From the IMG/VR virus record IMGVR_UViG_3300047558_000174, positions 1 through 23,570 of that record: DNA of 23,570 nucleotides. The stretch is one strand, 5' to 3'. Below are positions 2,240 through 14,659 of this stretch, one piece after another (the first letter of the stretch is position 1; each line of letters starts with the position of its first letter). The position numbers were made by a program, and so were the translations under genes. The DNA comes from a virus. The notes below the pieces were generated by a model. That model searched no databases. It had not been told where the DNA came from and was given only the letters and a program-made list of their open reading frames with translations.

Positions 2240-2785
2240 ATGAAAACAGTAGGCGATAAACTAGCACCATTTGCTATCACTGGCGTTAAGCCAGGTCAAC
2301 CAGAAGATGCTTTCTTCACCATTACCGATCAAAGTTTTGAAGGTAAGTGGAAAGTCATTGTGTATTACCCAAAGGACTTTACATTCGTATGTCCAACTGA
2401 AATCGTAGCATACGATAAGTTAGCAGGTGACTTTGCTGACCGTGATGCTATCTTACTAACAGGTAGTACTGACAACGAGTTCTGTAAAGTGGCGTGGCAA
2501 AAAGCACACCCTGATCTACAGAAGATTACTCACACTCAATTCGCTGACACACAACGCGGTGAACTATCATTGATTGAGCAACTAGGTGTATTCTATGCTC
2601 CAGCTGGCGCGGCTCTACGTGCTACATTCATTGTTGACCCTAACAACGAGATTCAACACGTTACAGTCAACAACCTAAACGTTGGTCGTTCACCAGAAGA
2701 AACCTTACGAATACTAGATGCTCTACAGACTGGCGAACTATGTGCTTGTAACCGTACAGTAGGCGGGGAGACACTAGGTAAGTAA
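2240..2785 (+). CDS. ahpC: AhpC-type 2-Cys peroxiredoxin
   Basis: A 181-residue, full-length peroxiredoxin. The peroxidatic cysteine is Cys51 in FTFVCPTEI. The C-terminus has GELCACNR with Cys168 and Cys170, the three-cysteine layout of mycobacterial AhpC, which is recycled by AhpD rather than AhpF. This matches the ahpD gene downstream. The enzyme reduces H2O2, organic peroxides and peroxynitrite in the cytoplasm. AAGGAGAAAAT precedes ATG. The gene is intact and its base composition fits its neighbours. Peroxiredoxins are rare in phages; I infer that it protects the infected cell or virion assembly from oxidative stress. The identification is secure, the role during infection is not. Confidence 0.95.
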   Translation: MKTVGDKLAPFAITGVKPGQPEDAFFTITDQSFEGKWKVIVYYPKDFTFVCPTEIVAYDKLAGDFADRDAILLTGSTDNEFCKVAWQKAHPDLQKITHTQFADTQRGELSLIEQLGVFYAPAGAALRATFIVDPNNEIQHVTVNNLNVGRSPEETLRILDALQTGELCACNRTVGGETLGK

Positions 2786-2799
2786 ATGGAAAGGTTGGT

Positions 2800-2869
2800 G
2801 ATAAATAATAGTGTAGTTCACGGGACGGCAATCCCCAACTACTCTAATGCTTACAAGGAGCAATCAGCA
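2800..2869 (+). promoter_or_regulatory. late promoter and structured 5' leader of the HNH gene
   Basis: GATAAATA at 2800-2807 resembles a T4-type late promoter. The leader after it has an outer stem GTAGTT/AACTAC and an inner stem GGGA/TCCC, then TCTAATGCT and AAGGAGCAATCAGC before ATG 2870. The same leader, with scattered changes mainly in the inner loop, precedes the unrelated GIY-YIG gene at 18015. The hairpin lies upstream of the ribosome site and could control its access. Confidence 0.55.
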
Positions 2870-3502
2870 ATGATATTTATCACCACCTCTAATGACTATC
2901 GTAGGATTTACGAAAGTTATCACGGCCCTATTCCCAAAGACAACGATGGTAGAAGTTATGAAATACATCATATTGACGGAGATAGGACTAATAACTCAAT
3001 TGAAAATCTCAAGTTAGTAACAATACAAGAACACTATGACATACACTTCTCCCAAGGCGACTGGGGAGCTTGTTGGAAAATAGCAGAAAGAATGGCAGTT
3101 TCTCCAGAAGAAAGATCCAAAATACAATCGGAACTTGCTATCAAAAATAACAAGGAACGAGTTGAAAACGGAACTCATAACTTTTTAGATAAAGAACAAG
3201 CAAGACACCGTGCCGTAAAAAGAGTAGCAAGTGGAACTCATAATTTTCTCAACAAAGATCACGCAAGAAAACGACAGGCAAAAAGGATTAGTCAAGGCAC
3301 ACATAATTTTGTAGGTGAAAACAATCCTTCAATTAAAAAAGCCAAAGAATGGATAGTTACTGATCCGCAAGGAACTAGTCAGTCAATTACTAATCTTGCT
3401 AAATTTTGTAGAGAAAATAAACTAGATGATGCCGCAATGATAGGTGTAGCAAAAGGAAGATACACTCATCATCACGGCTGGAAATGTAACTATAAGGAAT
3501 AA
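2870..3502 (+). CDS. HNH homing endonuclease inserted between ahpC and ahpD
   Basis: A 210-residue HNH nuclease. The catalytic core at about residues 22-65 reads YEIHHIDGDRTNN, then NLKLVT and EHYDIH, giving the His-His-Asn-His pattern. Three THNF-centred repeats follow (NGTHNFL, SGTHNFL, QGTHNFV), like NUMOD DNA-binding modules. A C-terminal module (KFCRENKLDD...HHHGWKC) also occurs in the GIY-YIG gene at 18015. The frame is open up to 2786, but ATG 2870 has AAGGAG nine bases upstream and aligns with the start of the other leader-sharing gene, so I choose it. It is a selfish element and sits exactly between two genes of one pathway. Confidence 0.85.
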   Translation: MIFITTSNDYRRIYESYHGPIPKDNDGRSYEIHHIDGDRTNNSIENLKLVTIQEHYDIHFSQGDWGACWKIAERMAVSPEERSKIQSELAIKNNKERVENGTHNFLDKEQARHRAVKRVASGTHNFLNKDHARKRQAKRISQGTHNFVGENNPSIKKAKEWIVTDPQGTSQSITNLAKFCRENKLDDAAMIGVAKGRYTHHHGWKCNYKE

Positions 3503-3506
3503 TATT

Positions 3507-4019
3507 ATGAGTTGGGTAGATCAGTTAAAAGAGTCTTTACCAGAATATGCTAAAGATGTTAGGTTAAATTTAGACTCTGTTATTAAACGAAGTAGCATCA
3601 ATGAAGAATTAGCAAGTGCTTGTGCTTTGGCGGCAGCTTTTGCTACAGGTAATGGTAAGTTAGTGTCTTTTATTCAGTCAAATATTGCTGATGAAAAAGA
3701 ACGAGATGCCGCTCTTGCCGCAGCAAGTATTATGGCAATGACAAATACTTGGTATCCATATGTTGAAATGGTGGATGACGAAAATCTTAAGGGTCTTCCT
3801 GCTCAAATCAGAATGAATGCCATTGCCAGCCACGGCGGAACTACTAAGGCAAACTTTGAAGCGTTTAGCCTTGCCGCTTCCATCGTAGGCAAATGTCACT
3901 TCTGTGTCAAGGCACACTACGACACACTCAAGAAGGAAGGCTACACAGTAGAACAACTTCGTGACATTGGTCGTATTGCGGCAGTAATGAATAGTGTTGC
4001 GAAAGTGCTGAATAGCTAA
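3507..4019 (+). CDS. ahpD: AhpD-type alkylhydroperoxidase, partner of AhpC
   Basis: A 170-residue member of the AhpD/carboxymuconolactone-decarboxylase fold. The active site Glu118...Cys130-x2-Cys133-x3-His137 (in EAFSLAAS and GKCHFCVKAH) sits at the same numbering as mycobacterial AhpD. The usual His132 is Phe here, with a His at 131 instead. Known AhpD carries electrons from dihydrolipoamide to oxidised AhpC and has weak peroxidase activity. Its ribosome site AAGGAATAAT lies in the last codons of the homing endonuclease, so the insertion did not cut it off from translation. With ahpC it makes a two-component peroxide reductase, using host lipoamide if the host supplies it (inference). Confidence 0.93.
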   Translation: MSWVDQLKESLPEYAKDVRLNLDSVIKRSSINEELASACALAAAFATGNGKLVSFIQSNIADEKERDAALAAASIMAMTNTWYPYVEMVDDENLKGLPAQIRMNAIASHGGTTKANFEAFSLAASIVGKCHFCVKAHYDTLKKEGYTVEQLRDIGRIAAVMNSVAKVLNS

Positions 4020-5069: not shown

Positions 5070-5098
5070 TTGACTACTGTGTATCTTTGATATATACT
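5070..5098 (+). promoter_or_regulatory. sigma-70 promoter of the suppressor tRNA
   Basis: TTGACT, 17 bp, TATACT ends nine bases before the tRNA's first base at 5107. Transcription would start almost at the mature 5' end. The host polymerase could make this tRNA from the start of infection. Confidence 0.65.
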
Positions 5099-5106
5099 AG
5101 TGATAT

Positions 5107-5181
5107 GCGTTAGTAGCTAAGTGGCATAGCAGGCGATTCTAAACCGCTGAACCGTGGGTTCGATTCCCACCTAGCGCACCA
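5107..5181 (+). tRNA. tRNA with anticodon CUA (amber suppressor)
   Basis: A complete cloverleaf with encoded CCA. The acceptor is GCGTTAG/CTAGCGC with one G-U. The D stem is GCTA/TAGC with loop AGTGGCA. The T arm is GTGGG-TTCGATT-CCCAC and the variable loop is five bases. The anticodon stem 5132-5136/5144-5148 has G-U, G-C, C-G and G-C pairs, then an A-C mismatch next to the loop. The loop TTCTAAA (5137-5143) places CTA at 5139-5141, reading UAG. The discriminator is A. The charged amino acid cannot be told from sequence; glutamine is a guess based on the amber codon downstream. Confidence 0.88.
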
Positions 5182-5204: not shown

Positions 5205-5450
5205 ATGGACATGGACAACGCGGCAGCATATTTAGCAGGTAGTATCTTGTATGGTTTAGGTACGGTATTCTGTATCGCTTGCGCCGTAGCAGTCAATAAC
5301 CTACTCGCTAAGTACTGGAAACCAGTCAGGGTATTTACCGCTGATAGCTTTAATCCGTTCAATAATGCTCCACGTTACGCAACCGAAGAAGAGTTGGCTC
5401 GTATCGCTCCTCACTTGGAAGAAAAAACAGAGCCCGCTAAAAAGAAGTAA
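5205..5450 (+). CDS. small membrane-anchored protein (81 aa)
   Basis: AGGGGAAACAAT precedes ATG. One hydrophobic segment (about residues 8-34, AGSILYGLGTVFCIACAVAV) is followed by a soluble tail with KYWKPVRVF and EEELARIAP, ending in lysines. I recognise the type as a conserved hypothetical protein of T4-like aquatic phages. Function unknown. It lies between the suppressor tRNA and the amber-containing gene. Confidence 0.7.
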   Translation: MDMDNAAAYLAGSILYGLGTVFCIACAVAVNNLLAKYWKPVRVFTADSFNPFNNAPRYATEEELARIAPHLEEKTEPAKKK

Positions 5451-5454: not shown

Positions 5455-5480
5455 TAATGTCACTACCAAAGGAGAAAATA

Positions 5481-6074
5481 ATGACACAACAATAGATTGA
5501 ATACGCTTGTAAGGACCTAGTATTTCATTTCAACAAGAAACATCTAGAAGACCCAACAATCCCAATGTGGGTGGTAAAAACTCATGGTGAGAGTTTTTAT
5601 GTCAATCATGTAACCGCAGAGTTACCATGGACAACAAAAGAAACACCAGACAACCCTCATACTAAGGGTAGTATCAAATTCAAAGAGTGCCTACTCGTCA
5701 TTGACGGCGAGAATTGTGCCACTATCTCAAAGCTATCCATCTTCGATAAAGTACGCCTGCGTAATCAACGACTAGGTATCAGCAGGATTATTTTCCGTGA
5801 CTTCTCGTTTAGTCAGATTCTAAAAGATGAGGGCGCCCGTCATTCCCCATTCAAAGTAATTCATGGTGCTTGTTCGACAGCATACACCGTGTGTGATTTG
5901 CTTGATTCTAAGATGGTCACATACTTACTACTAAAGTATTCAGATAAATTCCGCATCCTTATGCCGAATGAGACACAATACCAAGCGTATGATGACAAAT
6001 CCTTATGGGAAAAACTACAACAAAAGTATTACACGGACGAGTATCCAGACGACGATGAGGATGACGATGAGTAA
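5481..6074 (+). CDS. conserved phage protein with an in-frame TAG as fifth codon
   Basis: AAGGAGAAAATA precedes ATG 5481, then ACA CAA CAA TAG and an open frame to TAA 6072-6074. The residues after TAG (IEYACKDLVFHFNKKH, DPTIPMW) continue a family I know from aquatic phages, so translation should begin at 5481 and pass the TAG. If the amber is read, the product has 197 residues. The only later ATG (5565) has no ribosome site and would lose 28 residues. The C-terminus is very acidic (DDDEDDDE). CAG to TAG is one transition. The nearby CUA tRNA is the obvious way to read it; a recent pseudogene or a base-call error are the alternatives. Function unknown. Confidence 0.75.
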
Positions 6075-6344: not shown

Positions 6345-8228
6345 ATGAAAAAAACTATAGTCAGCATGGCTACGGCCATGCTGTGTGCGTCTGTCTCCGC
6401 TCAAAATTTAGGATTTGAGACTGGTGACGCAACAGATTGGACTGTTATCAACGGCAGTCTCGCACCAAAAACAACATGGAACGGCAACGGTAGCGGTGCT
6501 AGTGTAATCTCTGAGATTACGGCACTGACTCAGGGCGGTATGACATGGAAACTTCAACCATACGGTAACAAGATGCTTGCTCTACAAGCAGGTGGTGCTG
6601 GTGGCACATTCGATCAAATGGCAACAAACCTAGGTCTAAGTGCTAGTAGTGTTACTGAGTTGAAGAGTATCCTCACTCAACAAGCTCAAGCAACAGGCCA
6701 AGGTCAGGGTAATCCTACTAATGCCGCATGGGCTAAGACAACTATCAACGTTCAGGCTGGCGACATATTCAAGATGAGTTGGAACTACACATCTACTGAC
6801 TATGTACCATTCAACGACGGTAGTATTACTACTCTGGTCGATCCTACCAACGCTACTAACCTAGCAAAGATTAACGGTCAGCTAAAACAATATGCGTTAC
6901 TGGGGTTTACTAACCAAGGTACCGGCGACTATTCTACTGGCAGTTATGGTAGTACTGGTTGGCAGATTGCTAATTATGAAATCATTAACGGCGGTCAATA
7001 TGTGCTGGGCTTCGCATCATTCAATTTAGATGATACTGCTCTCAGTCCTATTCTGTTAGTTGATAATCAAAACGGCTACACATACAAGAACGGTACCCTA
7101 TTCGGTCCAGTTGCTCCTAACCCAGGCACAACTGCTCCTAATAATACAGGCGCGCCGGCTCCTACGCCAACGCCAACTCCGCCAACTGTGGTATCAACCG
7201 TACAAGACCAAGTCTTGACAACTGGTTGGTCTGCTCAAGTGGCTGGCGCTGGTGTTATGACAACAGTACGTCATCACGATGCTAGTGACAATGGTAAGGT
7301 ACAGACTATCGCAGTCAAGGACACTAACACAACAGTTACTCCTATGATTAACACTGCGTCATACAATCTTGTAGAGACAAAGACATGGAGTGATGGCACA
7401 ACTACGACCTCAGTCGTAGGCACTGGTACTGCTTATCAAGCACTCAACCCAAATACAAGTGTTGCTGAAGTTGACCAGCCAAGTTATGTTGGTCGTGTTG
7501 ACCAGATGCCAAGTGCTGTTGCTACTAATCGCAAGATTCTAACAACAATGAACTTCAACAATGTTGGCTACATGAACTACGATGCTAAGAAGAATGGTAT
7601 GAATGGCAGTTCTAACGGCTTCGTTGTAGGCGGTATGAAGTATCTTGAGGGTGGTTGGAGTGTTGGTGCCGGTGTTGCTAACTTTGCTGGCGGCCTGAGT
7701 GGTACTGATGGTATCGCTCGTTCTACTACTAACGCTGGTAGTCTAATGGCAGAGCAAAAGACAGATGATGTTACCGTTGACTACAACCTAGGCATCGGCT
7801 TCAGCGATTTGACTAGTGCTCGTACAATCGGCCCATTCAATAACAGTAGTGCTACTAAATCTAAGACTGTGTTCTCACAAGTCAAAGTAACTGGTAACGA
7901 ACCTCTAGTTGGTGATATCCGACCAGTTGGCGGCGTAGGTATAGGCTATGACCAGACCAACGGTTATGTAGAGAGTGGCAGTATTCAGAGTGCCCGTGAA
8001 GTCGGTAAACAGACTGACCGCTGGCAGTATGCTTTCGTTGGTGGCAAGTGGGTCAGTGGCCCATTCTCTGCTGAGGTAATCAAGCGTACAGACAATGTTG
8101 CTATCGCTAGTGTTGCTATTGACCACGAGCTAGAAGATAACAAGAATGTTTATCTCCGCGCAAGTTATGTCGATGGTAGTGAGCTACGTGGCTTACAAGG
8201 TCAAGTTGGCTTGAGAATCAAGTTCTGA
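6345..8228 (+). CDS. secreted outer-membrane-barrel-like protein (autotransporter-like)
   Basis: A 627-residue protein. Residues 1-19 form a Sec signal peptide (MKKTIVS...CASVSA, cleavage before Gln20). An N-terminal passenger of about 250 residues begins NLGFETGDATDWT, a pattern seen in carbohydrate-binding or anchor-type beta-sandwich domains. A Pro/Thr linker (PAPTPTPTPP) follows near residue 270. The C-terminal half alternates strands and ends GLQGQVGLRIKF, with a terminal Phe as in the BAM recognition signal of outer-membrane barrels. AAAGGAAACAT precedes ATG. It could be exported to the host outer membrane to alter receptors or block superinfection (inference), or be a virion protein that only looks like one. 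A terminator follows. Confidence 0.75.
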   Translation: MKKTIVSMATAMLCASVSAQNLGFETGDATDWTVINGSLAPKTTWNGNGSGASVISEITALTQGGMTWKLQPYGNKMLALQAGGAGGTFDQMATNLGLSASSVTELKSILTQQAQATGQGQGNPTNAAWAKTTINVQAGDIFKMSWNYTSTDYVPFNDGSITTLVDPTNATNLAKINGQLKQYALLGFTNQGTGDYSTGSYGSTGWQIANYEIINGGQYVLGFASFNLDDTALSPILLVDNQNGYTYKNGTLFGPVAPNPGTTAPNNTGAPAPTPTPTPPTVVSTVQDQVLTTGWSAQVAGAGVMTTVRHHDASDNGKVQTIAVKDTNTTVTPMINTASYNLVETKTWSDGTTTTSVVGTGTAYQALNPNTSVAEVDQPSYVGRVDQMPSAVATNRKILTTMNFNNVGYMNYDAKKNGMNGSSNGFVVGGMKYLEGGWSVGAGVANFAGGLSGTDGIARSTTNAGSLMAEQKTDDVTVDYNLGIGFSDLTSARTIGPFNNSSATKSKTVFSQVKVTGNEPLVGDIRPVGGVGIGYDQTNGYVESGSIQSAREVGKQTDRWQYAFVGGKWVSGPFSAEVIKRTDNVAIASVAIDHELEDNKNVYLRASYVDGSELRGLQGQVGLRIKF

Positions 8229-8243
8229 TAGTCAGTAAACCTC

Positions 8244-8269
8244 AAAACCCCACTTCGGTGGGGTTTTTT
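8244..8269. terminator. bidirectional Rho-independent terminator
   Basis: AAAACCCCAC-TTCG-GTGGGG-TTTTTT: a 6-bp GC-rich stem with a UUCG loop, T-run on the right and A-run on the left, so it works on both strands. It ends the rightward barrel gene and the leftward array, whose last stop (8268-8270) touches it. Confidence 0.9.
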
Positions 8270-8459
8270 ATTTCTCCGCTACACCAGCCCAGTCCCATTG
8301 TAAGATGTATGCGGTCTCTAGTTTCTCATTGTAGATGAAAATGTGGACGGCATTTAGGCCTCCCCAGAATTCCCAGTCACGACCGCGTTCGCCGTTCTGT
8401 CTGAGCCATTTAACAACTTCTGCTTTTTGTCTATTGACTATGTATTCTTTGTTGGCCAT
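8268..8459 (-). CDS. array family protein 1 (last gene of the array)
   Basis: 63 residues. It has the family helix VVKWLRQNG, a W-rich strand (DWEFW), IFIYNEKLETAYILQW and an extra tail (DWAGVAEK). It is the only member with no gene downstream, and its C-terminus has lost the AGG TGG coding for R-W. This fits the idea that the AGG codon is kept to serve a following gene. Its ATG lies inside the Thr-Trp codons (AC-ATG-G) of the upstream gene, with no clear Shine-Dalgarno. Function unknown. Confidence 0.75.
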   Translation of the reverse strand: MANKEYIVNRQKAEVVKWLRQNGERGRDWEFWGGLNAVHIFIYNEKLETAYILQWDWAGVAEK

Positions 8460-8743
8460 GTTAGTAACATCATATTGTAAATTGAATCGTGAACGTCAAA
8501 GCGTTGAATACTGACGGAGTCATTGGGTGAGCCTAGATCAAACCATAGTTTTGTTCTAGTATCAGCATACGTTGCTCTGATCCAGTTGCCAATCTCCTTG
8601 TTGACTGATACGTGATACCACTCTTCGCCATCGACCCATGTTCCTTGTGATTCCATTGTCCAGTCTTTCATTTGAATGACCATTAGTATCTCCCTAAGAG
8701 TAAGGTCACTGTTGTCAAGATATTTTTCAAAATCTGTTTTCAT
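8438..8743 (-). CDS. array family protein 2
   Basis: 101 residues from ATG 8743. IGNWIRATYADTRTKLWF is the helix-strand part and FDVHDSIYNMMLLTW the C-terminal helix, with Thr for the usual Arg and a short tail PTKNT. It stops at TAG and overlaps the next start by 22 bp. If this TAG were suppressed, about 28 residues would be added. The upstream junction has a weak GATGTGGG in place of GAGGTGG. Confidence 0.78.
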   Translation of the reverse strand: MKTDFEKYLDNSDLTLREILMVIQMKDWTMESQGTWVDGEEWYHVSVNKEIGNWIRATYADTRTKLWFDLGSPNDSVSIQRFDVHDSIYNMMLLTWPTKNT

Positions 8744-9174
8744 GCCCACATCAATAAGAATAGCACATAGTCTTGTTCATTATCAAACGCAACAAACAGG
8801 GCATCACCGCCACCTATATCGTTGATGTGCCATTCTTCCTCTGTTGTGTGGTCCCATGCGATAGCAGTTTGTTTGTACACACGCAGTATATCATCCCGCC
8901 AATGGCCTTGGCAATTCTCTCTACACCATTTACGTAGTTCATCTAAGCCTTCGATCCAATCACCGTAACGAGTCCATGGTTCACCACGAGTAGTGTGATA
9001 TATGTGAACATAAGGGTAACCATGAAAGTAATGCTTAGTTGTATTCGCCCGCATATCACAGCGTGGATCATTTCTGCGCTCGTATGCTTCCTGTGTCCAC
9101 CCCATCTTTTTTAGATAGCGTTGATGTAAGTGTGCGTCCCACCGTTCTCTGAGACTCTTGAACAAGTTAGTCAT
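8740..9174 (-). CDS. array family protein 3 (longest member)
   Basis: 144 residues from ATG 9174, which overlaps the upstream stop (ATGA). The unique N-terminal half is basic (LRERWDAHLHQRYLKK). Family parts are LRKWCRENCQGHW and FVAFDNEQDYVLFLLMWA. No Shine-Dalgarno precedes it, because the upstream gene ends KYL instead of RW; translation probably depends on coupling. Function unknown. Confidence 0.8.
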   Translation of the reverse strand: MTNLFKSLRERWDAHLHQRYLKKMGWTQEAYERRNDPRCDMRANTTKHYFHGYPYVHIYHTTRGEPWTRYGDWIEGLDELRKWCRENCQGHWRDDILRVYKQTAIAWDHTTEEEWHINDIGGGDALFVAFDNEQDYVLFLLMWA

Positions 9175-9395
9175 AAGTATTTTAGGGCGAACCATGTAGC
9201 CCAACTTTCATTATAGAACTTGAACACACCGTGTGCCCGCTCTAGTATCTCAAAGCTGAAGTTTTCGTTTTGATAACGGGTAACGTGCCAAGCATAGTCG
9301 AAGTCAACACCTTGCCTTAGGCCAGATTCACGCATTTCATAAACAACTTGTAGAAGTTCGTGGGCGCCATCAAGATACAGTTTGTGTTGGGTCAT
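9171..9395 (-). CDS. array family protein 4 (degenerate C-terminus)
   Basis: 74 residues from ATG 9395 with ATGA overlap. It has FKFYNESWATWFALKYL in place of the standard ending, so the R-W pair is K-Y. The usual W-C-x-E-N helix is not obvious; LLQVVYEMRESGLRQG may stand in its place. It still keeps the F-x-F strand and the hydrophobic helix. Confidence 0.72.
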   Translation of the reverse strand: MTQHKLYLDGAHELLQVVYEMRESGLRQGVDFDYAWHVTRYQNENFSFEILERAHGVFKFYNESWATWFALKYL

Positions 9396-9619
9396 GTCAT
9401 AAACTTCAAGAGGAATATCAGATACTTCTTTTCATCAACGATACTATACTCGCCGGTAATCATCTGGCCGGTAGTAAGCACCATGAGGATGCCGTAGTGT
9501 TCTTTGAGGTAGTCTTGTAAGCCGTCTGGATTAGGGGCGCCACATTGCTTGTAGTACTCTTTTGCCACCTTACTTAGTCCACTCCAGTATCTGTTACGAT
9601 CAATTTGAGTTTGTGTCAC
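9392..9619 (-). CDS. array family protein 5 (GTG start)
   Basis: 75 residues. GTG 9619 lies five bases after GAGGTGG, which encodes the upstream gene's R-W; no in-frame ATG lies near it. QDYLKEHYG is the helix and YSIVDEKKYLIFLLKFMT the C-terminal part, with K-F for R-W. It overlaps the upstream gene by 20 bp. Confidence 0.72.
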   Translation of the reverse strand: MTQTQIDRNRYWSGLSKVAKEYYKQCGAPNPDGLQDYLKEHYGILMVLTTGQMITGEYSIVDEKKYLIFLLKFMT

Positions 9620-9980
9620 GGGGCCACCTCAATAGCATCAGAGTGTAGAGCGATTCATCCATGATGTATCTAATGTAACTAACATGGCAACCATCATCTT
9701 CTTCGGCATACTTCCATAGTGATGGGTGTTGCTCTTCTACCCATGGTTGAACACTGCGTATGCGAACATCGACTGCTATCTTGTTACCAGGATATTGAAT
9801 ACACTCATTCTGATTACGTACTTCTTTGTAGTTGAGCATACCCAATGCTTTGCCATCTGGATGCTCAGTGTACGTGAAGTAACTATCAGGCTCACCAGGC
9901 TTTGGCGGACGAGTGTGCTTAACGTCACCCTTGTATTTGGATCGGATCCAGTCAAGTACGGCAGTTCGTAATGGTGTCAT
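9600..9980 (-). CDS. array family protein 6
   Basis: 126 residues from ATG 9980, coupled by ATGA to a zinc-finger-like gene. The N-terminal region is family-unlike and polar (KHTRPPKPGEPDSYF). VRIRSVQPWVEEQHPSLW resembles the W-helix and YIMDESLYTLMLLRW is the standard ending, with an extra PRDTNSN. The R-W codons are AGG TGG and serve the next gene's GTG. Confidence 0.78.
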   Translation of the reverse strand: MTPLRTAVLDWIRSKYKGDVKHTRPPKPGEPDSYFTYTEHPDGKALGMLNYKEVRNQNECIQYPGNKIAVDVRIRSVQPWVEEQHPSLWKYAEEDDGCHVSYIRYIMDESLYTLMLLRWPRDTNSN

Positions 9981-10183
9981 TCTTCGAACTTTCTCTCTTG
10001 ATATTTGTTACAAGTTTCACAGTAACGACCTTGACGGATGTAGATACTAGATGCGCTACGTAGAGCACCGCTCCACTTATGCCACTTGTGTAGCCCAATA
10101 GAGCACCAAAATGGCTGCTCTGAAAGTAGAGTTTTCTCTTCTAACATCCTAACTAAGTTTTCTTTTTCTAATCTACCACTCAT
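9977..10183 (-). CDS. zinc-finger-like small protein, not of the array family
   Basis: 68 residues from ATG 10183, preceded by GAGGTGGCT of the upstream member. FWCSIGLHKWHKW and YCETCNKY give a C-x4-H and C-x2-C set, a likely zinc site of a kind seen in many phage small proteins. It lacks the LLRW ending. It uses the array's embedded ribosome site but does not supply one in the same way, so it looks like an insertion into the array. Confidence 0.7.
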   Translation of the reverse strand: MSGRLEKENLVRMLEEKTLLSEQPFWCSIGLHKWHKWSGALRSASSIYIRQGRYCETCNKYQERKFEE

Positions 10184-10401
10184 AGCCACCTCAGTGCTGT
10201 CAATAACGCCACGTGCTCATCTCTAAACCAAAACTGAATAGCGGCCCTTGTGACTAATATCTTTGCCTCGTATCTGTTTCTATCCCACTCACATTGTTCA
10301 TCTACCCAATCAATGATTGTTCTAACTTCATCTACTCTTGAGATAATGTCATAAGTATCAGAGGTCCTGAGGGGCACATCGACTTTATAGTTTAACTCCA
10401 T
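10180..10401 (-). CDS. array family protein 7
   Basis: 73 residues if started at ATG 10401, which lies inside the upstream gene's Arg-Trp codons (CG-ATG-G). Neither this ATG nor the GTG at 10443 has a clear Shine-Dalgarno. IIDWVDEQCEWDRNRY is the helix and IQFWFRDEHVALLTALRWL the ending. The R-W codons AGG TGG give GAGGTGG to the zinc-finger gene. Confidence 0.75.
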   Translation of the reverse strand: MELNYKVDVPLRTSDTYDIISRVDEVRTIIDWVDEQCEWDRNRYEAKILVTRAAIQFWFRDEHVALLTALRWL

Positions 10402-10676
10402 CGCAATACAAACAGAATGTAATCTGCTTGGTCTCTGAACCACATTTGATCGAAATACGCATGGCGCCAGCGTGACCAGGCATCAGGCTTTCGATCCGGC
10501 GGACCAAAATGCTCAATACACCAGATGACAACTTTATCGTAGTCTTCATGGCGATAGTCAGCCTTTAGCCACTCACGACTAAATTTATACTTCGTGACTG
10601 GTCTATTAAATTCTTGAATAAGGATCTCCTTACAAAGATTATCAGTCATCAATCGTTTACTATTGAATCCCGTCAA
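10392..10676 (-). CDS. array family protein 8 (TTG start proposed)
   Basis: 94 residues from TTG 10676, placed five bases after the upstream gene's GAGGTG; the alternative ATG 10649 has no ribosome site. VIWCIEHFGPPDRKPDAW and QMWFRDQADYILFVLRWS show the family. Its Arg is CGA, not AGG, and here the next start ATG overlaps the R-W codons. Confidence 0.72.
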   Translation of the reverse strand: MTGFNSKRLMTDNLCKEILIQEFNRPVTKYKFSREWLKADYRHEDYDKVVIWCIEHFGPPDRKPDAWSRWRHAYFDQMWFRDQADYILFVLRWS

Positions 10677-10902
10677 AGCCCCACCTCAACATAAAAACTA
10701 ATCGTTGTGCTTCGTTCTCTATGCGCCATAGATTGACACCAAACGCAGATGCGCCTCGCTGACCGTTGTCATAGATTGATATGCCGTTCTCAGCACACCA
10801 TTGTATAACTTCTAAGTAATAGGTGCGTGACACCATAATATCACGCTCGTCACTAATTAACGAGTAGCCACTACCGTTAGTGAGGAACACCTTTGTCGCC
10901 AT
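10660..10902 (-). CDS. array family protein 9 (ends TAG TAA)
   Basis: 80 residues from ATG 10902, overlapping the upstream stop as TGATG. VIQWCAENGISIYDNG and NLWRIENEAQRLVFMLRW are the family parts, with a GFDGIQ tail. The stop is a tandem TAG TAA, so an amber suppressor would add one residue only. Its AGG TGG serves the next gene's TTG. Confidence 0.78.
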   Translation of the reverse strand: MATKVFLTNGSGYSLISDERDIMVSRTYYLEVIQWCAENGISIYDNGQRGASAFGVNLWRIENEAQRLVFMLRWGFDGIQ

Positions 10903-11087
10903 CAGCGTCTACCCCACATACCTACACGTGAGTAACCTAACTCACGCTTGATTTCTTTTCGGTCATCGCCATCGAACTCAGCAAGATCAGGATAAGGTTT
11001 ACGGCGCTCACGCTTGTAACGCTTTGCTTCACGCTCTAGGCGTTCCATGTCTTCTGATGTTGCTTTAGGTATCTTATGCTTTTTCAT
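10902..11087 (-). CDS. highly charged small protein, not of the array family
   Basis: 61 residues from ATG 11087, preceded by TTGAGGTGGGC. It is Lys/Arg/Glu-rich (MERLEREAKRYKRERRKPYP), probably helical or coiled, with no LLRW ending. With the gene at 9977 it is one of two clear strangers in the array. Function unknown. Confidence 0.68.
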   Translation of the reverse strand: MKKHKIPKATSEDMERLEREAKRYKRERRKPYPDLAEFDGDDRKEIKRELGYSRVGMWGRR

Positions 11088-11305
11088 GCCCACCTCAATC
11101 TAAACAGGGTAGCCTCATTGCTATTTGTAAAATAATAATCTGTTGACCTGTAGTGATACACCGTGTACCATCTACCGGTAACATTCTCTATCAGCCAATC
11201 TTCTATGAATTGTCTGCTGTCGGCAATGATAACACCCTTACTGTCTTCATCTTCCTCAAGCGTGACGATTTCAGGCCAAATCGATTTCTTCATTCGTCTT
11301 GTCAT
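11084..11305 (-). CDS. array family protein 10
   Basis: 73 residues from ATG 11305 with ATGA overlap and GAGGTGGGC upstream. IEDWLIENVTGRWYTVY is the W-helix and first strand; DYYFTNSNEATLFRLRWA is the ending. The N-terminus is unlike its neighbours (MKKSIWPEIVTLEEDEDSK). Confidence 0.82.
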   Translation of the reverse strand: MTRRMKKSIWPEIVTLEEDEDSKGVIIADSRQFIEDWLIENVTGRWYTVYHYRSTDYYFTNSNEATLFRLRWA

Positions 11306-11658
11306 GCCCACCTCAGTAAGAATAGGGTCAAGTCGTCATCGTTCTTGAACCAGAATGTGGAGTTGTTGACGTACCAGCGTTCTAGTTTACCTTCGCTCAT
11401 CCATGGTAGTCTAGTAGGGCCAAACTGCTCTACACACCATTCAACTGCTTTGTCCCACTTGATACTGCGACCTGTAATAGCATAAGCGCCATCATCATAC
11501 ACAGGACGGGCCGAGTGATACTGTGAACCTAGAATCTTGCCATCACTGACTTCGATTCTGTTCCAGCCAAGTAGCGACATAAGTAATTCAGTATCGATAT
11601 CACGTGCCATTTTAGCGGCCGCTTGATCGATTGCTTGTTGATAAATTTGTTGGTTCAT
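11302..11658 (-). CDS. array family protein 11 (long N-terminal extension)
   Basis: 118 residues from ATG 11658 with GAGGTGGGG upstream. The N-terminal 35 residues look helical (QAIDQAAAKMARDIDTELLM). The family core AVEWCVEQFGPTRLPW and FWFKNDDDLTLFLLRWA is one of the clearest in the array. Confidence 0.84.
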   Translation of the reverse strand: MNQQIYQQAIDQAAAKMARDIDTELLMSLLGWNRIEVSDGKILGSQYHSARPVYDDGAYAITGRSIKWDKAVEWCVEQFGPTRLPWMSEGKLERWYVNNSTFWFKNDDDLTLFLLRWA

Positions 11659-11837
11659 CCCCACCTCAGGTAATAAATGATTGCGTGGCTCTCGGGTACG
11701 TTATAGATTATATCATCTTGTCCTAATTGCCACAATGGCCAATTCGTCCAATCTTCGGCGCCAGGGCAGTTCTCTTTGATCCATTCACATCGTTCCCACC
11801 AAGTGATACGGTCAGTGATGACTAGTGTTTCTCTCAT
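11655..11837 (-). CDS. array family protein 12
   Basis: 60 residues from ATG 11837; the upstream junction is GAGATGGGT (Arg AGA), a weaker ribosome site. CEWIKENCPGAEDWTNW and IIYNVPESHAIIYYLRWG give the core with almost no N-terminal extension. It is close to the minimal form of the family. Confidence 0.82.
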   Translation of the reverse strand: MRETLVITDRITWWERCEWIKENCPGAEDWTNWPLWQLGQDDIIYNVPESHAIIYYLRWG

Positions 11838-12121
11838 ACCCATCTCAATAAGAATAAGGTAACGTTTGCTTCGTCTTTGAAAAAGAATGTTAGGTCATGA
11901 CCAACCCATGCGCGGCGCCATGATCGTTGTCGCCCTCCCTCGCCGAAGTTATCTGTACACCAATTATAGATTTCGGCAGCATCGTACTTAGTATCATACG
12001 TTCGCTTGACTGTAATCTTGTGTTTGTACTTACTTCTACGCTCGGTATGTATCACTCGATCTTCATCGTCTTTTATTTCTATCCAATCTTCATCATCGAA
12101 GTAAGGCTTTACTATATTCAT
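11834..12121 (-). CDS. array family protein 13
   Basis: 95 residues from ATG 12121. IYNWCTDNFGEGGRQRSW and FFFKDEANVTLFLLRWV are the family parts. The upstream gene ends Q-W (CAA TGG), which removes the Shine-Dalgarno, so this start relies on the ATGA overlap alone. The N-terminus is acidic then basic (DDEDWIEIKDDEDRV). Confidence 0.8.
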   Translation of the reverse strand: MNIVKPYFDDEDWIEIKDDEDRVIHTERRSKYKHKITVKRTYDTKYDAAEIYNWCTDNFGEGGRQRSWRRAWVGHDLTFFFKDEANVTLFLLRWV

Positions 12122-12387
12122 AACCATTGTAATTGTATAATTGTCATTAGTTCTTCACGTATGATGTAGATAGCACGATGACGCCCACCGTAGGTCTTCC
12201 ACAATTCTCTATCTTGTGTTTCAATCCAATCGCCGAACCAATAACTTGTTTGTATTCTATACCATCTCACATCATCTTCTACAAAACCCCACGGCTCACA
12301 ACCTCGCTCGAAGTGATATAGTCGTGTGCTATGTCCTTCTGGCGGATTCTTTGTGTGAAAGTAAACACTGTCGATTTCGCCACTCAT
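12118..12387 (-). CDS. array family protein 14 (Q-W ending)
   Basis: 89 residues from ATG 12387, preceded by CTAAGGTGGTT. FGDWIETQDRELWKTYG and IYIIREELMTIIQLQWL show the family with Arg replaced by Gln. The replacement also removes the AGG used at other junctions. Confidence 0.78.
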   Translation of the reverse strand: MSGEIDSVYFHTKNPPEGHSTRLYHFERGCEPWGFVEDDVRWYRIQTSYWFGDWIETQDRELWKTYGGRHRAIYIIREELMTIIQLQWL

Positions 12388-12599
12388 AACCACCTTAGAA
12401 TGAACAGCAATTCTTGCTTACTATTTTTCAACCACACGACACCGTGCGAGTAATAGTAATCATAACCATAACTTTTGAAGTTCTCTCTGAGCCAGTCTAA
12501 CACTTCTTTAGTTACCTTATACTCGATACGATATCTAAATATGTTTTGTTTCTTAGCTCCAACACATATGTGAAGAGCCTCATATCTGCCTACCTTCAT
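12384..12599 (-). CDS. array family protein 15
   Basis: 71 residues from ATG 12599 with CTGAGGTGGCT upstream. VLDWLRENFKSYGYDYYY and VVWLKNSKQELLFILRWL are the core. It supplies AAGGTGG to the next gene. Confidence 0.82.
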   Translation of the reverse strand: MKVGRYEALHICVGAKKQNIFRYRIEYKVTKEVLDWLRENFKSYGYDYYYSHGVVWLKNSKQELLFILRWL

Positions 12600-12775
12600 A
12601 GCCACCTCAGCATGAATAGGGTTTGGTGCGCTTCCTCTCTAAACATGAATCGTTCGTTCATGTAGTCCCAGTTACGTTGACCACAGTTCTCGTTACACCA
12701 TGTTGATAGCGTATACCAATCTCCCATGGAGTTCCACCACTTTGATGTTCGTTTGTAAGGTACGTAATACTTCAT
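12596..12775 (-). CDS. array family protein 16 (minimal form)
   Basis: 59 residues from ATG 12775 with TTGAGGTGGGC upstream. LSTWCNENCGQRNWDYM and RFMFREEAHQTLFMLRWL make a compact core. Two cysteines in W-C-x-E-N-C are shared with other members (8740, 14078) and could bind metal or pair, but no further Cys/His support this. Confidence 0.83.
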   Translation of the reverse strand: MKYYVPYKRTSKWWNSMGDWYTLSTWCNENCGQRNWDYMNERFMFREEAHQTLFMLRWL

Positions 12776-13014
12776 GCCCACCTCAATAAGAATAGGGTCA
12801 TGTAAGTCTCAGATTCGAATTCGAGTAGCATGGTGCCACTGCGACCGAGCATCATTCTACTGCTATCAGGACGGCGATGCGTGTAGCGGCGTCTAGCGTG
12901 GTACTCTCGTGCGAGTACATCCCAGATGCTACCATCAGTGGAGGGGTCTAAGTTAGCCCAGTAGTGGTCAACAATTTTGTTCCAGTACGGGTCAAGATTG
13001 ATTACTGTGTCCAT
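12772..13014 (-). CDS. array family protein 17
   Basis: 80 residues. The ATG at 13014 lies inside the upstream R-W codons (CG-ATG-G) with no Shine-Dalgarno. The W-helix is weak (IWDVLAREYHARRRY), but MLLEFESETYMTLFLLRWA is canonical. Confidence 0.8.
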   Translation of the reverse strand: MDTVINLDPYWNKIVDHYWANLDPSTDGSIWDVLAREYHARRRYTHRRPDSSRMMLGRSGTMLLEFESETYMTLFLLRWA

Positions 13015-13379
13015 CGTAGCAAGAACAGGGTCAAGTCAGCATCGTGTTTGAAGTGCCAAACACCCCATGACAACTTGTTTGTCCAGCGTGGATTCTTGTA
13101 GCCAGTTGATTCTAATGGTCCATATGTTTCTTCACACCACTGGTTGACTTTCTTTTCAAAACCCCATGGCGCATTATTCACCTTCGCCCAGCACTTGAAC
13201 TTGCCACGTTGAACCATTTGGCCATGAGTAATTTCTACCGGCTTGCGCTTCTCCATGATGGTTGTCCACTGTTGTACGTAATCGTTCACCATACTCTTTC
13301 CTGTTCCGCGTCCATACATTACGGCGAGTGTGTCTGGCTTCCAGCCGCCACTCTCAATGTCTGCCCATACTGTTGTCAT
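13002..13379 (-). CDS. array family protein 18 with a P-loop-like N-terminal motif
   Basis: 125 residues from ATG 13379 with ATGA overlap. The family core is VNQWCEETYGPLESTG and WHFKHDADLTLFLLRWTQ. The N-terminus has MYGRGTGKSMVNDYVQQW, which resembles the deviant Walker A of phage packaging ATPases, but the protein is too short for an ATPase domain. Its Arg codon is CGA, and the next ATG overlaps it. Confidence 0.8.
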   Translation of the reverse strand: MTTVWADIESGGWKPDTLAVMYGRGTGKSMVNDYVQQWTTIMEKRKPVEITHGQMVQRGKFKCWAKVNNAPWGFEKKVNQWCEETYGPLESTGYKNPRWTNKLSWGVWHFKHDADLTLFLLRWTQ

Positions 13380-13663
13380 TGACCTAATACCTTTGGTTGA
13401 TACACTAACAAATCAAAAGCAGTAGCGTATTCGGTTTGGGGTTCCATATGAAAGCCTGTGCCCCACATGATCCACACTCTACGCTTGTATGCCTTCGTCC
13501 AAAACAGAGGTTGACCTGTTACCGATCTTCTTGGCCAGATAACGAACGTTTCTGTCCACGGGTAACAATCTGCTCCGTCTTCAATTATAGTGTAGTCCAT
13601 GGTTTGTGTCAACTGTCTGTAGTGCTTATTGTCACCAATACTTCTGTTCCAAAGTATCTTCAT
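13376..13663 (-). CDS. array gene with divergent C-terminus (doubtful family member)
   Basis: 95 residues from ATG 13663. It is Trp-rich (FVIWPRRS, PLFW, VWIMWGTGF) and ends TAFDLLVYQPKVLGQ, where TAFDLL could be a relic of TLFLL. No R-W pair is present. A different site (TTAGGTCA) precedes the next ATG. It may be a decayed member or a separate family. Confidence 0.6.
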   Translation of the reverse strand: MKILWNRSIGDNKHYRQLTQTMDYTIIEDGADCYPWTETFVIWPRRSVTGQPLFWTKAYKRRVWIMWGTGFHMEPQTEYATAFDLLVYQPKVLGQ

Positions 13664-13902
13664 GACCACTTGAGTAAGAAGATGGTGTATAAGTTATCAT
13701 CAATGATTTCATATCGTTCAATCTGGCCGTAATCGTGACTCAAGTGTACACGCAAGCCGTAATTGATTTCTAGGTAATGTAAGTGTGAATCAATTTTTGG
13801 ATCACCAGAAACATATCGCTCAGCACCAGTCAAGAACGCCACATCAGGGCCCTCATGGCGATACTGTTTCTGTACCATTTTTATTACTGCTTGTAAGCTC
13901 AT
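13660..13902 (-). CDS. array family protein 19 (K-W ending)
   Basis: 80 residues from ATG 13902 with TTGAGGTGGTC upstream. LHYLEINYGLRVHL takes the place of the W-helix, and RYEIIDDNLYTIFLLKWS is the ending with Lys for Arg (AAG TGG), which weakens the next ribosome site to CAAGTGG. Confidence 0.78.
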   Translation of the reverse strand: MSLQAVIKMVQKQYRHEGPDVAFLTGAERYVSGDPKIDSHLHYLEINYGLRVHLSHDYGQIERYEIIDDNLYTIFLLKWS

Positions 13903-14081
13903 GACCACCTCAATAAGTAAATCAAATATACATCTTCATTCATCCATAAGTTTTCTAACCCATAGTCATATTCTTCACCCCAACGATCACCGTTGACTCC
14001 GAAGTTTTCAACAAGCCACATTTTAACATCATACTTGCGAGTCCAATGCCAGCGTTCGGTTACGATGCCGTACTGATTCAT
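13899..14081 (-). CDS. array family protein 20
   Basis: 60 residues from ATG 14081 (ATGA overlap). ATG 14093 is possible; the frame is open farther upstream inside the previous gene without a better start. VKMWLVENFGVNGDRW and NLWMNEDVYLIYLLRWS are the family parts. Its AGG TGG supplies the next gene. Confidence 0.76.
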   Translation of the reverse strand: MNQYGIVTERWHWTRKYDVKMWLVENFGVNGDRWGEEYDYGLENLWMNEDVYLIYLLRWS

Positions 14082-14257
14082 GAACCTGTCCATCTTAATA
14101 AGAATAGGGTGTAGTCTGCTTCGCTGTAGAATTGAAATGTGCCATGTAGTTTGTACTTCCATGTACCCTGACAATTCTTCTCGCACCAGTCAAGACGATT
14201 AGACCATGCGCCCTCTGATGGGTGAACGTCATCTGGGGTTCTGTACCAATATGTCAT
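14078..14257 (-). CDS. array family protein 21
   Basis: 59 residues from ATG 14257, which shares one base with the upstream TAA (TAATG) and follows GAGGTGGGCATA. RLDWCEKNCQGTW and FQFYSEADYTLFLLRW are canonical, with a TGS tail. Its Arg is AGA; a separate ACAGG lies before the next ATG. Confidence 0.82.
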   Translation of the reverse strand: MTYWYRTPDDVHPSEGAWSNRLDWCEKNCQGTWKYKLHGTFQFYSEADYTLFLLRWTGS

Positions 14258-14454
14258 TATGCCCACCTCAATAGAAAAAGAGTCATATCCGACTCATTTT
14301 TGAAAGTGAAGAAAGTAGTGCCGAACGCAGAATCTATCCACCATACCTGATCGTCGTAATTGGCCCAGCCGCCGTAGCCTATATTTTCTTTACACCATTT
14401 GGTCATATCACCCTGTAGATGATATTTGTCTCGACCGAACTCAATTTTGTGCAT
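14257..14454 (-). CDS. array family protein 22
   Basis: 65 residues from ATG 14454, preceded by GGGGGTAGT. MTKWCKENIGYGGW and FFTFKNESDMTLFLLRWA are canonical. It follows the upstream TAG stop after one base. Confidence 0.82.
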   Translation of the reverse strand: MHKIEFGRDKYHLQGDMTKWCKENIGYGGWANYDDQVWWIDSAFGTTFFTFKNESDMTLFLLRWA

Positions 14455-14455
14455 A

Positions 14456-14659
14456 CTACCCCCAACGGAGTTCAAATATTGTTACATCCCTATCGTCTTC
14501 GAATTCAAACTCATAGACACCTGCTGAGTAGCCAGCTTGCTCTTGTACAGTAGTTAGGTCCCAATTCCCGACGCAGAATTGTCCGCACCAGTCTAAGACT
14601 TCATCTAACCCACCGTACTTGACAAAGATTGTGACCGTATGGTCAGACTTGATTGCCAA
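14456..14659 (-). CDS. array family protein 23 (first gene of the array; TTG start, TAG stop)
   Basis: 67 residues. TTG 14659 lies in the end of the dCMP deaminase gene, eight bases after GAGGTAA; the frame has no ATG. VLDWCGQFCVGNW and YEFEFEDDRDVTIFELRWG show the family. It stops at TAG; suppression would add five residues before TGA. As the first member it links the array to the nucleotide-metabolism genes upstream. Confidence 0.78.
   Translation of the reverse strand: MAIKSDHTVTIFVKYGGLDEVLDWCGQFCVGNWDLTTVQEQAGYSAGVYEFEFEDDRDVTIFELRWG

Follow-up and report, generated by a model that had tools for sequence, protein, structure and literature searches.

What do lone suppressor tRNAs read in phages that otherwise keep the standard code? 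This has been an open puzzle. According to the excerpts of the published reports considered here, the authors of the XacN1 genome (anticodon CUA) looked for suppressor targets and found none (PMC5852040), and a UCA suppressor was described in Atu_ph07 with no target named (PMC6102473). The same question is raised by an IMG/VR virus record that was analysed over 23,570 bases (the window). The sole tRNA that ARAGORN places in it has the anticodon CTA, and the gene downstream carries the matching stop in frame near its start. The features of this locus are:

5070–5098, + strand: sigma70-type promoter of the tRNA, TTGACT-17-TATACT, 10 of 12 consensus matches; recurs upstream of related CUA tRNAs
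5107–5181, + strand: suppressor tRNA, anticodon CUA at 5139–5141, CCA encoded (ARAGORN, sequence, Rfam)
5205–5450, + strand: ORF of 81 aa between the tRNA and the gated gene, no confident family; putative module member
5469–5474, + strand: ribosome-binding site AAGGAG before ATG 5481 (sequence; same kind of site in relatives)
5481–6074, + strand: gated gene (FHFN gene), reading ATG, 3 codons, TAG, 192 more codons and TAA (sequence; relatives)
5493–5495, + strand: in-frame TAG gate, codon 5 (kept in 23/23 relatives that reach the start)

A sequence-only reading of this DNA had described a complete cloverleaf with encoded CCA and a CTA anticodon in the loop TTCTAAA. Both ARAGORN and pairing by eye agree with that description: the acceptor stem has 7/7 pairs (one G-U), the D stem 4/4 and the T stem 5/5, and base 73 is A. 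The labels 'Pyl' (CUA) and 'SeC' given by ARAGORN reflect the anticodon only. The single mismatch, already pointed out in that reading, is the A-C pair at 31-39. Since related tRNAs commonly carry a non-Watson-Crick pair at this position (C-A, A-C or U-G), the mismatch is not expected to be disabling, and the low score that had been feared from it was not seen. Against Rfam RF00005 the tRNA scores 61 bits over its full length (E 3.4e-11), compared with a gathering score of 29. The molecule thus folds as a tRNA cloverleaf and its anticodon pairs with a stop codon, as expected of a nonsense suppressor. Its amino acid identity is less distinct: the acceptor start GCG, found in 41 of the 74 tRNAs listed (several of them tRNA-Arg matches to the pattern), and A or G at position 73 single out no one synthetase.

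The tRNA had also been credited with a host-type promoter of its own. The promoter-like sequence ends 8 nt upstream of the tRNA, and scores of at least 10 were obtained upstream of 25/59 distinct CUA tRNAs vs 18/397 other tRNAs. The gene with an in-frame TAG, placed about 300 bp past the tRNA, was likewise found there. It begins ATG ACA CAA CAA TAG ATT GAA, with the ATG 299 nt downstream of the tRNA.

Relatives of this gene were collected using the part after the first downstream Met as query, which yielded 25 viral loci; two of them are cut at the start and were excluded. In each of the 23 relatives whose start is present, the conserved block (IEYAC-like ... FHFNK) comes directly after an in-frame TAG. 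Between ATG and TAG the codons differ both in how many there are and in what they encode (S, A, TQ, TQQ, SQQ, AM, TDLNPIAI), although TAG and the residues that follow are invariant. A second search, with a relative from Rhizobium phage RHph_I1_18 as query, gave 62 rows. Among the scanned loci there are 89 FHFN genes, 72 of them TAG-gated, and 16 of the 17 ungated ones have a gated PTH2 gene adjoining or near; at the remaining locus, L140, none was seen. Of 50 distinct N-termini, 32 have the TAG as codon 3 and most others have it at codon 4–10. TAG is followed by A in 46 of the 50; an A at this place favours readthrough, and Ile codons likewise begin with A. Over the seven codons before FHFN, differences are concentrated at the third codon position (0.245/0.204/0.581 at positions 1/2/3), which argues that this stretch is translated. 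An early stop is thus conserved, as would be expected of a gate that is specific to this gene.

The same data bear on the idea that the gene is a pseudogene, or its TAG an accident of sequencing or of the strain. An in-frame stop is what such an accident would leave, and no gene is annotated at the corresponding place in RHph_I1_18. With the same stop in 50 distinct N-termini and coding conservation after it, this explanation is hardly credible. A frameshift was also considered and rejected, as ATG, stop and downstream block lie in one frame in 23/23 relatives. The natural exception is L140:4989-5564, an FHFN gene without the stop that is close in sequence to those of L139 and L162. Its contig keeps CUA tRNA genes despite the lost stop, and it could serve as a useful natural control. 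No FHFN relative was found in GTDB contigs (76 pattern stretches, 0 confirmed) or in PLSDB plasmids.

Cultured phages were searched by tblastn over 50,697 phage records, and four records matched. In RHph_I1_18 an unannotated ORF begins ATG AGT GAG TTC ATG TAG AAC, in which TAG is codon 6 when counted from the ATG five codons upstream, and its stop is followed after 11 nt by an annotated tRNA-Pyl(cta). In Sinorhizobium phage Phosso and Agrobacterium phage Atu_ph07, FHFN is the ungated C-terminal part of a longer protein, and a PTH2 gene lies two genes upstream. This PTH2 gene has an in-frame stop upstream of its core, in Phosso at codon 4 (ATG-AAA-TAT-TAG-GTT) and in Atu_ph07 at codon 7 (ATG...TTT-TGA-ATT). 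The annotated PTH2 starts of both phages fall after the gate, downstream of the true core. Because of the early stop, then, standard annotation appears to have missed this gene family, leaving the RHph_I1_18 copy unannotated and starting PTH2 after the gate in the other two.

Gated PTH2 genes are not confined to these phages. PTH2 is gated at codon 3–5 in L150, L156, L157, L159-161, L164, L165, L167, L168 and L171, where the ungated FHFN overlaps or follows the gated PTH2 gene; the L171 copy is frameshifted. At L147 both FHFN and PTH2 are gated. The gate codon numbers at L168, L169 and L147 depend on the ATG chosen, the nearest ATG giving the lower number. Pfam PF01981 scores above its curated cut-off in the gated copies L180, L181, L186, L190-L196, L198 and L201. 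The huge-phage records LR756500 and LR756501 have no FHFN match, and their PTH2 is gated near CUA tRNAs. FHFN is absent from XacN1, SCTP-2, RAS14 and phiM19, and the PTH2 genes there show no gate; in both respects XacN1 differs from the present phages.

If the gate is served by the tRNA, the anticodon should follow the stop. Phosso, with a TAG gate, has two CUA tRNAs, and Atu_ph07, with a TGA gate, has a UCA tRNA at 430,713-430,787 that is not annotated there in its record. Similarly, L245 combines a TAG gate on PTH2 with a CUA tRNA, and L246 a TGA gate on PTH2 with a UCA tRNA; the co-variation rests on the two TGA cases, Atu_ph07 and L246. The tRNAs found in the TGA phages resemble neither one another nor the CUA tRNAs, and the pairing of stop and anticodon therefore looks selected and not inherited as a block.

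Cognate tRNAs also occur together with the gate. Of 92 gated loci (74 with FHFN and 18 with PTH2 only, a set that contains near-identical contigs), 80 have a cognate tRNA nearby. The count was 81 before inspection; L137 was removed, its tRNA being a tRNA-Arg. The twelve loci without one are L113, L114, L119, L126, L131, L132, L133, L137, L138, L143, L168 and L169. Several of these are fragments, while the contigs are 47-100 kb long for L126, L132 and L133 and 150 kb for L114; these four contigs were searched throughout with the exact pattern and in parts with ARAGORN. L137 and L138 carry an odd tRNA over which ARAGORN is split between Arg and Pyl, and at L119 a candidate CUA tRNA, its D arm long, fell outside the filter. 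On shuffled sequence the tRNA filter gave 0 matches in 874,948 bases. No cognate tRNA was detected in 79 control loci fetched by an unrelated neighbour gene, and none of 40 whole control contigs had a CUA tRNA when ARAGORN was applied to the four pattern matches. Among the loci of the control fetch, L027 is the single one with a CUA tRNA; it also has a gated FHFN gene, as does L107, and was treated as a case. At loci where ARAGORN puts the tRNA on the same locus as the gate, the two share a strand in 39/39, with the tRNA upstream in 37.

A different reading of the early stop is that TAG closes a leader peptide, the gene itself being reached by reinitiation or through a non-standard start just after the stop, and the tRNA serving something else. 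The gates lie 2–10 codons from the ATG, as do the stops of leader minigenes, and in four mycobacteriophages a GTG with a Shine-Dalgarno-like site comes right after the TAG. The codons after the stop vary (ATT, ATC, ATA, ACT, AAC, AAA, GTN), and 18 of 19 gated PTH2 genes have no ATG, GTG or TTG between gate and core motif, the exception being L246 with one GTG. As the anticodon moreover changes together with the stop, we regard this reading as improbable. A start at the ATT after TAG was rejected on its own account, both for the varying post-gate codons and for a ribosome-binding site that is too distant in the long-leader cases.

The sequence-only reading had hinted that the phage might recode TAG in general, and this part of it was not borne out. 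TAG terminates 4/55 hand-picked ORFs of the window, and in six related genomes 5/147, 5/125, 7/106, 21/141, 18/184 and 2/82 of the long ORFs (2–15%). These six genomes were also searched for conserved segments that follow a stop and have no start codon; the internal-stop part of the search was swamped by antisense shadows and was left out. Among the 33 candidates after shadow removal, only FHFN recurs in all six genomes, always behind TAG. TAG still acts as a stop, and the many sense genes with in-frame TAG that a code-15 phage would have were not seen. A genome-wide alternative code, in which this gene would be one of many containing TAG, is highly improbable on these counts, even though CUA tRNAs are typical of code-15 phages (PMC13037316, PMC10879173) and the PTH2 gene of LR756501 has a further in-frame TAG. 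That record (L296, 735 kb) may itself use code 15, given the second in-frame TAG and two CUA tRNAs. As far as the excerpts of these two papers go, a phage CUA tRNA reads UAG in a standard-code host in code-15 phages, the same as proposed here; those phages recode many genes, whereas the present genomes each yielded a single early stop, and other genes in them still end in TAG.

The arrangement is very probably a natural lock, worked by a suppressor tRNA, on a small operon related to translation, comparable to an engineered feed-forward circuit. The parts of it established by comparison among relatives are the conserved stop, the coding conservation after it, the co-occurrence of tRNA and gate, and the co-variation of stop and anticodon; of these, the first, third and fourth give good support to the earlier proposal that a phage amber suppressor tRNA would serve the downstream TAG gene. 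In the lock, the FHFN gene (in sister phages PTH2, in the same neighbourhood) would be held behind a conserved stop within its first 2–10 codons, and the dedicated tRNA, made from its own promoter, would read that stop. Without charged phage tRNA, ribosomes would release a peptide of 1–9 residues. With it, a fraction would read through to the full protein, as set by competition with the release factor. The result would be a feed-forward AND gate whose product requires both the mRNA and the mature, charged phage tRNA, and because both are needed the leak before phage takeover should be small. In infected cells the tRNA is presumably charged and reads the gate stop, limiting expression until it accumulates. 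We infer charging by a host synthetase, as we do the inserted amino acid, the extent of readthrough and its timing. A tRNA that reads TAG would also extend other phage genes that end in TAG.

Expression tied to an early in-frame stop has a precedent. The release-factor 2 gene prfB is autoregulated at an in-frame UGA, via a frameshift and without a dedicated tRNA. As in the present gate, an early stop links expression to termination; prfB shifts frame, whereas the gate would keep the frame and supply the tRNA. The engineered 'leak dampener' (Ho et al., PMC7969014), in the outline of it considered here, is still closer, as a gene with a nonsense codon is expressed only with a co-made suppressor tRNA, and the outline includes an opal version. 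It was built in E. coli, whereas the phage-borne arrangement is natural, conserved and directed at PTH2/FHFN, and would be nature's version of an AND gate engineered at the level of translation. Like the phages studied here, XacN1 and Atu_ph07 are, in the excerpts noted above, standard-code phages with stop-reading tRNAs, and Atu_ph07 is one of our cases; unlike its published account as excerpted, the present analysis proposes a target, PTH2. The open-access literature searched gave no report of such a gate or of its targets. A co-varying target makes the question of lone suppressors testable in cultured phages.

The suppressor-tRNA lock might be extended to a feedback circuit, in which termination and drop-off at the early stop load peptidyl-tRNA and the readthrough product, PTH2 or perhaps FHFN, acts on peptidyl-tRNA, so that expression would report the translation state. 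Pfam PTH2 identifies the second gated protein as a peptidyl-tRNA hydrolase, and the further PTH2 paralogues that these phages carry are ungated. The gates fall at codons 2–10, where drop-off is most likely. Against this, a PTH2 match of any kind was present in only 22 of 50 records searched, most FHFN-gated ones having none beside the gate. We consider the circuit possible but rather doubtful; it would add to the lock and does not oppose it. In a broader form, which we put forward tentatively, a gene-specific UAG/UGA lock on a PTH2 and/or FHFN operon, with a dedicated co-varying tRNA, would have evolved probably several times; since PTH2 has peptidyl-tRNA as its substrate, a feedback circuit on termination and drop-off may arise from lock and product together. 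If true, the idea would account for many of the lone suppressor tRNAs in phages, those in about 190 sequenced mycobacteriophages perhaps among them.

As a gate, the mycobacteriophage arrangement can be read in two ways. In Alice, Cane17, Myrna and ScoobyDoobyDoo (the Mycobacterium phage loci L306, L307, L308 and L297) PTH2 is annotated from the GTG directly after TAG, and an ATG or GTG lies directly before the TAG. A CUA tRNA is located downstream of PTH2, annotated as tRNA-OTHER in Cane17 and as tRNA-Ser in Myrna. A promoter-like TTGACA...TANNNT lies 6–7 nt upstream of the first ATG/GTG, and from this spacing the mRNA might be leaderless, with TAG as codon 2. The Shine-Dalgarno-like site fits the annotated GTG equally well. 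The Alice region is shared at at least 95% identity by 190 records.

The FHFN protein of the window matched no Pfam or PHROGs family, and nothing significant in the PDB by sequence (best E 0.14). AlphaFold gave confident models of both the full protein (86.4) and its N-terminal domain (pLDDT 92.9). No significant fold match was obtained for the full model (Foldseek best E 7e-3; VIA best Z 6.1, residues 91-175) or for the N-terminal domain alone (Foldseek best E 0.97; VIA best Z 2.7). A WW-domain-like stretch at residues 27-46 (E 0.14-0.6) is a lead only. The neighbouring PTH2 suggests a role for FHFN around peptidyl-tRNA. FHFN showed no relation to the LLRW array of the window (hhalign probability 0.6%).

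Three other regions of the window are of note. About 22 small ORFs (61–154 aa) stand in tandem on the minus strand at 8268-14659, many with overlapping ends; in alignment they have a C-terminal TLFLLRW-like motif in common and little else, and look like a large family of diverged duplicates. At 6345-8228, a 627-aa protein with a signal-like start matches the autotransporter beta-domain (Pfam, E 1e-6), which is unusual on a phage record. At 2240-4019 an AhpC-like peroxiredoxin (2240-2785), an HNH endonuclease (2786-3502) and an AhpD/CMD-like protein (3507-4019) lie consecutively, making a redox pair with a homing-type nuclease in its middle.
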